Positions 12,844-15,813 of a stretch of 64,000 nucleotides of DNA are shown here, piece after piece. Position 1 is the stretch's first letter; every line of letters begins with the position of its first letter. The notes under the pieces were generated by a model. The model was not told the DNA's origin, ran no database searches, and saw only the letters and a list, made by a program, of their open reading frames with translations. The stretch is from Thermus sediminis (GTDB taxonomy: Bacteria; Deinococcota; Deinococci; Deinococcales; Thermaceae). The position numbers and the translations under genes are program-made. The stretch spans positions 1,785,501 through 1,849,500 of the forward strand of contig NZ_QURO01000004.1 in NCBI RefSeq assembly GCF_003426945.1, read 5' to 3'.

Positions 12844-13374
12844 TCAGCCTTGGGGCTTTCGCCAGCGGGCCCATAGGGGGAGGAGGACCAGAAGGGCGAG
12901 CGCGGGCCAAAGGAGCCAGGGGGGTACCCTCTGCCCCAGGAGGTAGGCGAAGAGGACGAGCCCTTGGGTCCAAAGGAGGCTTCCTAGGGCCGAAAGCAGG
13001 AGGTAGGCGTGGAGGGGAAAACCTAGGGCCCCGAAGAGGAAGGGGACCAGGGTGCGCAACCCGGGCACGAAGGGAGCGACGAGGAGAGCCGAGGGGCCGA
13101 AGCGGGTCAAAAACCGCTCCCCCCTTTCCACCAGCTCTGGGGGAAACCGCTTTCGGATGGGCGGACCAAGCCTCCGTCCGATCCCGTAACCCACCCCGTG
13201 CCCCAGGAAGGCTCCCAGGAAGAGGAGGGGCAGGAGGGGGAAGAGGGCAAGCCTGCCCTCCCCGGCGAGGGCGCCTAGGGCCAGGAGGAGGGTGTCCCCG
13301 CCGGGCACCAGGAGGCCGAAGGGAAACCCCACTTCCAGGAAGAGCAGGAGGGCTGGGGTAAGGTAGGCCCACAT
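12844..13374 (-). CDS. DedA-family membrane protein
   Basis: 176 residues with several hydrophobic helices and the DedA/VTT domain pattern: a re-entrant-loop region GLLVPGGDTLLLALGAL, the GHGVGYGIGRRLG segment, and RFGPSALLVAPFVPGLRTLVPFLFGA, which matches the family G-x-x-x-v-x-x-R-F-x-P-x-x-R motif in modified form. Some DedA proteins flip polyprenyl phosphate or phosphatidylethanolamine or support proton-motive force; the substrate here is unknown. It starts 1 base before the terC stop region (13376), so it belongs to the transcript controlled by the manganese riboswitch. Confidence 0.83.
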   Translation of the reverse strand: MWAYLTPALLLFLEVGFPFGLLVPGGDTLLLALGALAGEGRLALFPLLPLLFLGAFLGHGVGYGIGRRLGPPIRKRFPPELVERGERFLTRFGPSALLVAPFVPGLRTLVPFLFGALGFPLHAYLLLSALGSLLWTQGLVLFAYLLGQRVPPWLLWPALALLVLLPLWARWRKPQG

Positions 13375-13375
13375 G

Positions 13376-14071
13376 TCAAGAGGCCTGGGGAGCGGGCTTC
13401 CTCATGGCCCAGAGGCCTCCCAGGAAGAGAACCGCCACGATGAAGAGGCTGAAGGCCTCCTTGTCCAGTCCCACGACCATTTCAGGCCGCCCCAGGACCT
13501 CCTTGGCCAGCTTATCCCACCCTCCCAGGGCCAGCTTCACCGCGGCCAGGCCCACCACCAGATAGGCCAGGTGCTTGAACCGGGGGTAGCGGTCTAGGAG
13601 GCCCACCACCAGGCCGGCCAGCACCCTAAGGGCCAGGATGCCCAAGAGGACCCCGGTGTAGATGACCCAAAGCCTATCGGAAAGGGCCACGGCCACCAGG
13701 ACCGAGTCTACCGCGAAGGCCAGGTCCATGAGCTCCACCTGGGCCACCACCTTCCAGAACTGGGCGGCAGTGGCCTCCAGGGGCGGAGGCGCGTGGGCCT
13801 CCTCGGGCTTCAGGAAGTGCTTGAGGGCAATGTAGAGGAGGTAGGCAGCCCCCAGGGCCTGGACCCACCAGAGCTTGATGACCAAGGTGGCGAAGAGGAG
13901 GGCGAGGCCCCTGAGGACATAGGCCCCCAGGATGCCGTAGAAGAGGGCCTTGCGCCTCAGGTGTAGGGGAAGCCTCTGCACCAGCACCCCTAGGATGAGG
14001 GCGTTGTCCGCGGAGAGGATCACCTCCAGGACGATCAGGATCAGGATCACCGAGATCACGCCAGCTTCCAT
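13376..14071 (-). CDS. TerC-family membrane protein, probable manganese exporter
   Basis: 231 residues from ATG 14071, with seven or so hydrophobic helices. The TerC signature acidic residues are seen in VLEVILSADNALILGVLV (helix 1) and VELMDLAFAVDSVLVAVAL (middle), as in TerC/Alx/MeeF proteins, several of which export Mn2+. The ATG is preceded by GGAGG; an in-frame TTG at 14083 lies inside the terminator T-tract and is less likely. A yybP-ykoY (Mn2+) riboswitch in the leader supports a manganese export or homeostasis role. DedA follows in the same unit. Confidence 0.88.
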   Translation of the reverse strand: MEAGVISVILILIVLEVILSADNALILGVLVQRLPLHLRRKALFYGILGAYVLRGLALLFATLVIKLWWVQALGAAYLLYIALKHFLKPEEAHAPPPLEATAAQFWKVVAQVELMDLAFAVDSVLVAVALSDRLWVIYTGVLLGILALRVLAGLVVGLLDRYPRFKHLAYLVVGLAAVKLALGGWDKLAKEVLGRPEMVVGLDKEAFSLFIVAVLFLGGLWAMRKPAPQAS

Positions 14072-14081
14072 GCCCACCTCC

Positions 14082-14113
14082 AAAACAAAAGGACCACCGC
14101 TTCTGCGGTGGTC
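14082..14113 (-). terminator. Rho-independent terminator of the terC riboswitch
   Basis: On the minus strand a perfect 9-bp stem GACCACCGC (14113-14105), loop AGAA, GCGGTGGTC (14100-14092), then CTTTTGTTTTG. It ends just before the terC ribosome binding site. Its 5' arm contains the ACC of the aptamer end GGCAAGACC, so aptamer closure and terminator formation compete. Confidence 0.88.
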
Positions 14114-14196
14114 TTGCCCGGGCTCTTCCGCCCCCGACCCCCCGAGGCCCGTGGCCTGTCCTGACGTGGGGCCGGCAAGGGGCTACTCCCCAACCA
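14082..14196 (-). ncRNA. yybP-ykoY manganese riboswitch upstream of terC-dedA
   Basis: Reading the minus strand, the leader holds the two hallmark conserved stretches of the yybP-ykoY aptamer: GGGGAGTAGC (14191-14182) near the start and GGCAAGACC (14118-14110) at the end. Between them lie GC-rich stems. TGGT (14196-14193) can pair with ACCA just after GCAAG to form P1. The ACCA bases are shared with the 5' arm of the terminator, giving an on-switch: Mn2+ holds P1 and lets RNA polymerase pass. The family is known to control TerC/Alx and MntP-type exporters, which fits the gene behind it. Confidence 0.85.
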
Positions 14197-14202
14197 AAAG
14201 AG

Positions 14203-14208
14203 AGTATA
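14203..14208 (-). promoter_or_regulatory. -10 box of the riboswitch-terC transcript (TATACT)
   Basis: TATACT on the minus strand places the transcription start near 14196, exactly where the aptamer begins. No good -35 is visible. Confidence 0.65.
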
Positions 14209-14235
14209 GCAGCAAGCCGGGGCGGTGGGAGAGGG

Positions 14236-14247: not shown

Positions 14248-14604
14248 ATGGACGATGCGCGCCAGCAGGCGAACCCCGGGGCGGGGGCTCTGCCCAGCAA
14301 GGAGCAGGTCCTCGAGGCCCTCAAGGTGGTCTACGACCCCGAGATCCCCGTGAACATCGTGGACCTGGGCCTGGTCTACGACGTGGAGGTCCACGAAAAC
14401 GGCGTGGTGGACGTCACCATGACCCTCACCGCCATCGGGTGCCCGGCCCAGGATGTGGTGAAGGCGGACGCGGAGATGGCGGTCATGCGCCTACCTGGGG
14501 TGCAGGGGGTGAACGTGGAGTTCGTCTGGACCCCGCCCTGGACCCCCGCCCGGATGACCGAGGAGGGGAAGCGCATGATGCGGATGTTCGGTTTCAACGT
14601 GTAA
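14248..14604 (+). CDS. MIP18/DUF59-family Fe-S assembly protein (SufT/PaaD-like)
   Basis: 118 residues, single DUF59 domain. The motif VYDPEIPVNIVDLGLVYDV and the conserved Cys in TLTAIGCPAQDVV are diagnostic, and the C-terminal PPWTPARMTEEGKRMMRMFGF is the usual PPW-x-x-x-x-x-T-E extension of stand-alone MIP18 proteins. Family members (SufT, PaaD, CIA2) help mature Fe-S proteins. No suf genes lie nearby, so it acts from a separate locus. Its mRNA is probably leaderless and ends at the strong hairpin just downstream. Confidence 0.92.
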   Translation: MDDARQQANPGAGALPSKEQVLEALKVVYDPEIPVNIVDLGLVYDVEVHENGVVDVTMTLTAIGCPAQDVVKADAEMAVMRLPGVQGVNVEFVWTPPWTPARMTEEGKRMMRMFGFNV

Positions 14605-14745: not shown

Positions 14746-15813
14746 CTACCGTAGAAGAAATCCCTGGCCTAGCGGGTCATCTGGGGCAAGTACAAATTCG
14801 TGTTGGCCGGTAATCCAGGCACGGCCGGAAACCTCGGGGATGATCGCTGGAAAGCCCGCAACGGCCGCTTCGCTCGCTATCGTGACGGTGAACGTGGTCC
14901 CCAGGATGCTCTCGGTGGTGAAGGCCTGGCCTGGCAGTAAGCGGCCACGGGCGTATTCCAGGGCTGCCCTCCCGCTCACGCCGGTCCCCGTGGGGGAACG
15001 GTCCACCTCACCATCCGCAAAGATGCAAACGTTGCGCGCCTGGTGCGCCGGATCCTGTGGCGGGCCGCTTATGATCGTCCCGTACAGGAAGCTGAGGTCT
15101 GGTTCGAGCGGGTGGTGGATGGGGTAGGCCGACATCACCGCGCGCTTGATGGCCATGCCGGCCTCGATCAGCTTGCGATAGTTGGCGGCCTCCAGCGTCA
15201 ACCCCAGATCTCTGGCGTCAACATAGGCGTAGAACGCGCCGCCAAAGGCCAGGTCGTAGCGCACACGGCCCCAGCCGGGTACGTCCACAACCTGATCCAA
15301 CGCATAGGCAAAAGAGGGCACGTTGCGGAAGGAGACGTGCATCACCCGGGAACGGTCCGGGCTCAAAGCCGCCTGGGCGACCACCTGGCCGGCTGGCGTG
15401 TCTATGCGCAGCCTTTCTTTGCCCGCCAGGCCCGAGCAGTCCAGGTCAGGGAAGGTGGAGGGTCGGGGCCGGGCCTCCAGCAGGCAGGTGACCAGAGCGA
15501 TGATGCCGTGCCCACACATGGTGCTCCAGCCCTCGTTGTGCATGAAGAGGACGCCCAGGTCGCTTTCGGGGGAGGTGGGCTCGGTGATGAGGGCCCCGTA
15601 CATGTCCGCGTGGCCGCGCGGCTCCAACATGAGGAGACGGCGCAACCCCTCCAGACGTTCCCGAGCGTAACGGCGCTTTTGAAGCATCGTTGCGCCGGGG
15701 AGGGGATCCAGGCCGGCCGTCAAAACCCTTAGCGGCTCCCCCTCGGCGTGCAGGTCTAGGGTGGTGAAACGCTGCCAGGTGGTGGCGGGCTGCCAGCTCA
15801 TGATGGAGCCCAC
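14746..15813 (-). CDS. Proline racemase-family enzyme, probable trans-3-hydroxy-L-proline dehydratase
   Basis: 355 residues of the proline racemase fold. The first catalytic position is Cys100 in STMCGHG, but the second, Cys in racemases and 4-hydroxyproline epimerases, is Thr275 in DRSPTGTG. Cys/Thr is the known marker of trans-3-hydroxy-L-proline dehydratase, which makes pyrroline-2-carboxylate. Codon choice is clearly looser than in neighbours (many NNA/NNT codons, lower G+C), and it carries its own E. coli-like promoter and operator, so recent acquisition is likely. GTG 15813 is used here; ATG 15801 is an alternative. No reductase for the product is adjacent. Confidence 0.82.
   Translation of the reverse strand: MGSIMSWQPATTWQRFTTLDLHAEGEPLRVLTAGLDPLPGATMLQKRRYARERLEGLRRLLMLEPRGHADMYGALITEPTSPESDLGVLFMHNEGWSTMCGHGIIALVTCLLEARPRPSTFPDLDCSGLAGKERLRIDTPAGQVVAQAALSPDRSRVMHVSFRNVPSFAYALDQVVDVPGWGRVRYDLAFGGAFYAYVDARDLGLTLEAANYRKLIEAGMAIKRAVMSAYPIHHPLEPDLSFLYGTIISGPPQDPAHQARNVCIFADGEVDRSPTGTGVSGRAALEYARGRLLPGQAFTTESILGTTFTVTIASEAAVAGFPAIIPEVSGRAWITGQHEFVLAPDDPLGQGFLLR

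Follow-up and report, generated by a model that had tools for sequence, protein, structure and literature searches.

A candidate manganese riboswitch with shared aptamer and terminator bases in front of terC-dedA in Thermus

The terC-dedA gene pair of Thermus sediminis is preceded by a compact, G+C-rich leader, which raises the question of whether this leader acts as a genetic switch and, if it does, which ion it would respond to and by which route. We consider it highly probable that it belongs to the yybP-ykoY (Mn2+) riboswitches and works as a transcriptional ON switch, in which a helix P1.1 held by Mn2+ would block a terminator and thereby control terC-dedA. The leader is ordinary in kind, being of a Mn2+ riboswitch class with a published mechanism, and is of use as a compact, G+C-rich and bicistronic test case. 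What merits follow-up is the linkage to DedA, a YugP-type target of a second riboswitch and the shortfall of the Rfam model among these genomes. By title, none of the literature found on Thermus, TerC and manganese or on yybP-ykoY, terminators and Deinococcus deals with this leader.

Place and parts of the leader

The leader lies on the minus strand of the window, i.e. of the whole stretch of 64,000 nucleotides that was analysed, read 5' to 3'; the strand had not been given in the sequence-only reading. A putative extended -10 promoter element, TGCTATACT, was read from the sequence at 14203-14211, and given this element just upstream, the leader RNA probably starts near G14195, where P1.1 begins. 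On visual, uncounted inspection, the orthologous leaders show similar hexamers at about equal distance, while a scan of the leader with a consensus sigma-70 pattern, which needs a -35 element, found no promoter.

Both hallmarks of the yybP-ykoY class that had been claimed for this leader are present as exact motifs on the minus strand, with GGGGAGTAGC at 14191-14182 and GCAAGACC at 14117-14110; CGTCA is found at 14166-14162, and GGUUGGGGAGUAGC spans 14195-14182. A single copy of the three-motif pattern is present in the 64 kb, and none of 100 dinucleotide shuffles contains it.

In the aptamer, the P1.1 5' strand GGUUGG (14190-14195) pairs with CCACC at 14107-14111, leaving one U bulged, and the P1.2 5' strand GCCC (14180-14183) pairs with 14116-14119 in all 27 terC leaders of the genus. 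The L1 core motif GGGGAGUAGC (14182-14191) is invariant in the same 27 leaders and exact in the 44 external sequences of the covariance model R1 described below, which had been selected for it. Helix P3 with its internal loop L3 (14134-14175), supported by pair changes and the R1 alignment, carries the L3 motif CGUCA (14162-14166), again invariant in 27/27 leaders, and is followed by helix P4 (14120-14133), in which three of four pairs change on both sides. The 3' side of L1 and the start of the P1.1 3' strand are formed by GCAAGACC (14110-14117); either this motif or GCGAGACC is present in every one of the 27 leaders, GCAAG reading GCGAG in some of them. The leader folds with -70.7 kcal/mol (z -3.1), and 0/200 shuffles were as good.

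Only 4-5 nt separate P1.2 from P3, and the hairpin P2 of a four-way junction is absent. The Lactococcus lactis riboswitch has such a P2. This yybP-ykoY member (yoaB) shares with the terC leader the L1/L3 docking core and, according to the available text on it, is a Mn2+ ON switch, whereas the leader described here has G+C-rich helices, one bulged U in P1.1, no P2 between P1.2 and P3, and a presumed thermophile as its host. Similarly, the 177-position Rfam model RF00080 agrees with the leader in core motifs, helix order and association with terC but has a hairpin after GUAGC (structure line as read) which the terC leader lacks. The suggestion that the lack of P2 constitutes a new junction variant was rejected: the short form is common (at least 120 stretches, 121 matches among those listed), and the Streptococcus mgtA member, as described in the accessible part of PMC9495176, already has a three-way junction, although it controls a P-type ATPase. 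Because the short-gap form is so common (at least 120 stretches), P2 was not counted as a required element.

The docking of L1 and L3 and the role of a discriminator adenosine are described in the available portion of PMC6754395; by analogy, the A of CGUCA should be the Mn2+-contacting discriminator adenosine, the position-by-position equivalence being carried over from that structure. This bears on the strongest of the competing explanations, namely that the aptamer senses another divalent ion such as Ca2+, or divalent ions in general, to which we assign a small probability. According to the part of the review PMC9495176 that was available, the Streptococcus mgtA member binds Ca2+ more tightly than Mn2+, yet the same text reports that in vitro Mn2+ activates transcription from that member more than Ca2+ does. 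In addition, the adenosine of L3 that has been connected with Mn2+ specificity is kept here (CGUCA in 27/27 leaders), and the downstream TerC family is linked to manganese in the accessible portions of PMC12096827 and PMC13274385. The TerC encoded downstream (PF03741) counts as a product of a manganese-homeostasis gene, with a role in Mn export or metalation predicted from its family.

Bases shared by P1.1 and the terminator

The sequence-only reading had placed a perfect 9-bp terminator with a T tract directly in front of the terC ribosome binding site, and this arrangement is indeed present at 14113-14077 on the minus strand. In the 5' to 3' direction, GACCACCGC-AGAA-GCGGUGGUC (14113-14092) is followed by CUUUUGUUUU, GGAGG and the terC ATG at 14071. 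In detail, the intrinsic terminator hairpin GACCACCGC-AGAA-GCGGTGGTC occupies 14092-14113, the T tract CTTTTGTTTT directly after the stem 14082-14091, and the ribosome binding site GGAGG 14077-14081. The exact stem, with any 4-base loop allowed, occurs once in the window and in 0/100 shuffles, and the isolated hairpin has a predicted energy of -18.0 kcal/mol at 37 C and, extrapolated as all energies near 70 C are, of -8.6 kcal/mol at 70 C.

The pair tables place CCACC (14107-14111) both in the 3' strand of P1.1 and in the 5' arm of the terminator, where it forms bases 3-7, and the two pairings exclude one another. It had been suggested that ACC/ACCA serves at once as P1 closing strand and as terminator arm; at 14112-14107 these bases do belong to both, and in 27/27 leaders CCACC is common to P1.1 and the terminator. 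A hairpin that resembles a terminator and begins in the 3' strand of P1.1 was found in 27/27 leaders as against 26% of mononucleotide shuffles, and in 105/118 sufficiently long external loci among the matches listed as against 35% of shuffled ones, by a loose rule which admits up to one mismatch and has, with mononucleotide shuffles, a background of 22-35%. Sharing bases in this way is thus the usual design of the class among those external loci.

The proposed mechanism would run as follows. RNA polymerase would first make the aptamer, i.e. P1.1, L1, P1.2, P3/L3 and P4. Mn2+ would then dock L1 against L3, so that P1.1 (GGUUGG with CCACC) is held, the terminator 5' arm stays occupied and transcription reads through into terC-dedA. 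In the absence of Mn2+, the GACCACCGC arm would invade, the 9-bp terminator would form and transcription would stop before the terC ribosome binding site; the ligand would therefore have to hold P1.1 while the polymerase passes. Mn2+ as the ligand, the ON direction and the kinetic competition are inferred from the work on L. lactis, where, according to the accessible text of PMC11087558, Mn2+-held P1.1 blocks the terminator and Mn2+-induced readthrough was found by experiment.

Predicted folding energies point in the same direction. For an RNA that ends with P1.1, forcing the aptamer costs no more than 0.6 kcal/mol relative to the best fold at 37 C (1.9 at 70 C), and once the terminator is transcribed the OFF fold is better by 11.3 kcal/mol at 37 C and by 9.3 at 70 C, the values near 70 C being extrapolated. 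This modelled balance is the one expected of a transcriptional ON switch.

A control that is mainly translational, with the terC ribosome binding site being hidden, appears very unlikely to us. The site follows the stem by only about 10 nt, and translational members of the class exist, e.g. E. coli mntP (according to the available part of PMC11647493), but the terminator pairs leave GGAGG out, and a 9-bp G+C-rich stem with a T tract is present.

Covariance models and conservation

An Rfam search with the yybP-ykoY model had been proposed as a test of the riboswitch assignment, and its outcome was divided, as RF00080 remained below its cut-off and an independent covariance model matched the leader. 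At gathering thresholds, the whole window gave no match to Rfam. RF00080 scored 12.4 bits (E 0.26) on the terC leader, against a gathering score of 45, and a scan of 20 of the 27 orthologous leader loci gave no score that high. Among 41 related genomes, 25 of them from the genus, an E value of 0.001 was reached in 18 and the cut-off in none, in a run with stricter filters and Rfam release 15. All 16 RF00080 matches within the genus adjoin a yugP-like gene, never terC. Among 14 control genomes, matches were obtained in four (E. coli, B. subtilis, Caulobacter vibrioides and Thermus composti), two of them above the cut-off. As RF00080 exceeds its cut-off in 2/14 controls yet in 0/41 related genomes, we see the model itself as the limiting factor. 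The sequence-only reading had named the lack of a covariance-model hit as grounds for giving it up, and the curated Rfam model taken by itself would have seemed to supply these grounds. Since RF00080 stays below its threshold in the related genomes that were searched, annotation based on it can overlook manganese control in them.

For the independent model, genome contigs were scanned with the three motifs and a short first gap of 13-17 nt between GUAGC and CGUCA, which gave at least 120 stretches, with 121 matches among those listed. From 80 of the at least 120 stretches, 44 sequences were picked by hand, with Bacillaceae thinned, and aligned, and a structure with P1.1, P1.2, P3 and P4 was written for them (model R1). 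R1 was built from other bacteria, none of the 44 record titles being from this genus, and the gap sequence of the terC leaders of the genus is absent among the 121 gap sequences of the matches listed. The R1 structure has standard pairs in 87.1% of cells and 240 cells changed on both sides, neither value being reached in any of 500 shuffles. In this external set, P1.2 is constant, and P1.1 has three pairs with changes on both sides.

On the window, R1 recognized the leader with 52.5 bits (E 8.3e-12) as the sole match at E up to 10, part of such scores being motif identity, as the R1 sequences were chosen by three exact motifs that are also in the window. It matched 27/27 orthologous terC leaders of the genus (39.3-62.4 bits), with one further match at chance level (E 1.2) on the orthologous loci. 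A second match in the genome of the window (C4:868295-868352, 25.6 bits, E 0.004) is short, with 58 nt, and probably due to chance. No R1 match was found at three loci (L036-L038) of a terC paralogue with about 50% identity. Throughout the phylum, R1 matched 37 of 111 genomes at E 1e-4. Of these, 27 belong to the genus; in the other ten, the next frame is TerC in nine and Zn_peptidase_2 in one.

Pair changes within the genus support the fold in P3 and P4. For the 25 distinct terC leaders, 96.8% of aptamer cells are paired, the corresponding values being 93.8% for shuffles and no more than 63.6% for slid structures, a control which leans towards the P3 and P4 pairs, these having been drawn from RNAalifold on the same alignment. 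Neither the slid structures nor any of 500 shuffles attained the covariation score of 0.153. Changes on both sides are seen in six pairs, divided equally between P3 and P4, and in P3 92.9% of cells are paired among the 25 distinct rows.

P1.1, P1.2 and most of the terminator stem are all but invariant within the genus, and covariation is no test there; this invariance, which is not in itself a test either, is expected because the bases have two partners. All five P1.1 pairs stand in this register in 26/27 leaders, the exception (L010) being able to pair one base over. Of the terminator pairs, the seven inner ones are kept in 27/27 leaders, whereas one outer pair is kept in 24 and the other in 26. 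In three of four terC leaders from related genera (L217-L219), CCACCGC/GCGGUGG has jointly become CCACCACG/CGUGGUGG, with ACCACC unchanged; the fourth (L216) has a longer terminator stem with one mismatch.

RNAalifold, given the 27 leaders, drew a conserved 5' hairpin (5' GGGG with CCCC around AGUAG) in place of P1, which would hide both P1 5' strands. This competitor shows no covariation and was set aside. Its four G-C pairs do not vary within the genus, its outer U-A pairs are kept in 26 and 24 of the 27 leaders and both broken in the window, and its CCCC is lost in three of four terC leaders of related genera (L216, L217 and L219; kept in L218). It is possible that this hairpin represents the apo fold.

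The terC-dedA pair and a second riboswitch of the genus

The gene behind the leader, terC (13376-14071, minus strand, 231 aa), matches Pfam TerC PF03741 with E 2.3e-48; its start at ATG 14071 was picked for its GGAGG, the listed reading frame beginning at TTG 14083. It is followed on the same strand by dedA (12844-13374, 176 aa; VTT_dom PF09335, E 7.1e-17), which starts 1 nt after the terC stop, and beyond dedA by a convergent PII-like gene. From this gene order, dedA would be co-regulated with terC by the riboswitch.

The dedA gene is the sole PF09335 match in the genome of the window. Within the genus, 25 PF09335 matches above the cut-off were found in 27 genomes, of which 22 lie directly behind terC and three elsewhere (G003, G022 and G042), and in 20 of the 22 linked genomes the terC-linked copy is the only one above the cut-off. 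No PF09335 match was found in G009, G010, G017 and G018 among the 27 genomes, and in G042, which is 65% complete, there is only a piece of dedA behind terC. The linkage of dedA to terC is thus strong but not always kept (22/27 genomes). DedA proteins are often thought to be collectively essential.

Behind the external matches, a relative of the TerC of the window was found in 39 of 118 searchable segments (of 121 listed, at most 3.5 kb each), and DedA or YugP in 0/118 of these segments. Judged from titles and the beginnings of abstracts, the literature on DedA with manganese, TerC or riboswitches does not describe a terC-dedA linkage.

A second Mn riboswitch of the genus precedes a Zn_peptidase_2 (YugP-type) gene (leaders L039-L064). 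It resembles the terC leader in its core motifs and in a hairpin beginning at GACC, and differs from it by a hairpin at the place of P2 and by the gene it controls, Zn_peptidase_2. Of the 27 genomes of the genus, 26 have the YugP-type gene, and in 24 of these R1 recognizes the leader before it. Only 12 of the 24 pass the overlap test described above; in the others, a gap of a few bases between stem and T run appears to be the obstacle. At the one locus that was examined in this respect (L004, 1501-2587), Zn_peptidase_2 (PF04298) is followed by a zinc-ribbon gene (PF13453). A Zn_peptidase_2 riboswitch is also present in G075, from another genus of the family. By title and start of abstract, the literature on yugP with riboswitches, or on metallopeptidases with yybP-ykoY, held nothing on the topic.

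The two yugP leaders missed by R1 are those of G006 (L056) and of the window's own genome (L063, G000:C4, about 392.4-392.6 kb). Both have lost CGUCA and the T run, a terminator-like stem remaining, and from their sequence they look decayed. That the hairpin before terC is likewise a constitutive attenuator, with its motifs the remnant of a decayed riboswitch, is the least probable of the explanations considered, for although the decayed-looking copy before the yugP-like gene (L063) sits in the same genome, the terC leader has L1, L3, P1.1, P1.2 and P4 intact, scores 52.5 bits and has its core conserved in 27/27 genomes.

Taking the Mn2+ riboswitch reading of the terC leader together with the yugP leaders, we tentatively suggest, as a reading more doubtful than probable, a small RNA-controlled manganese regulon reaching beyond export, in which TerC and the usually sole DedA would share a transcript and the second Mn riboswitch would govern a membrane zinc metallopeptidase of the YugP type. 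DedA and YugP might then be part of a membrane manganese response, e.g. by metalating or clearing membrane proteins together with TerC. In our judgement, these linkages offer a testable handle on two families whose role is poorly understood.

In the neighbourhood of the leader, the window also holds a proline racemase family gene (PF05544) at 14746-15813 on the minus strand, which is convergent with an Fe-S assembly gene (PF01883) at 14248-14604.
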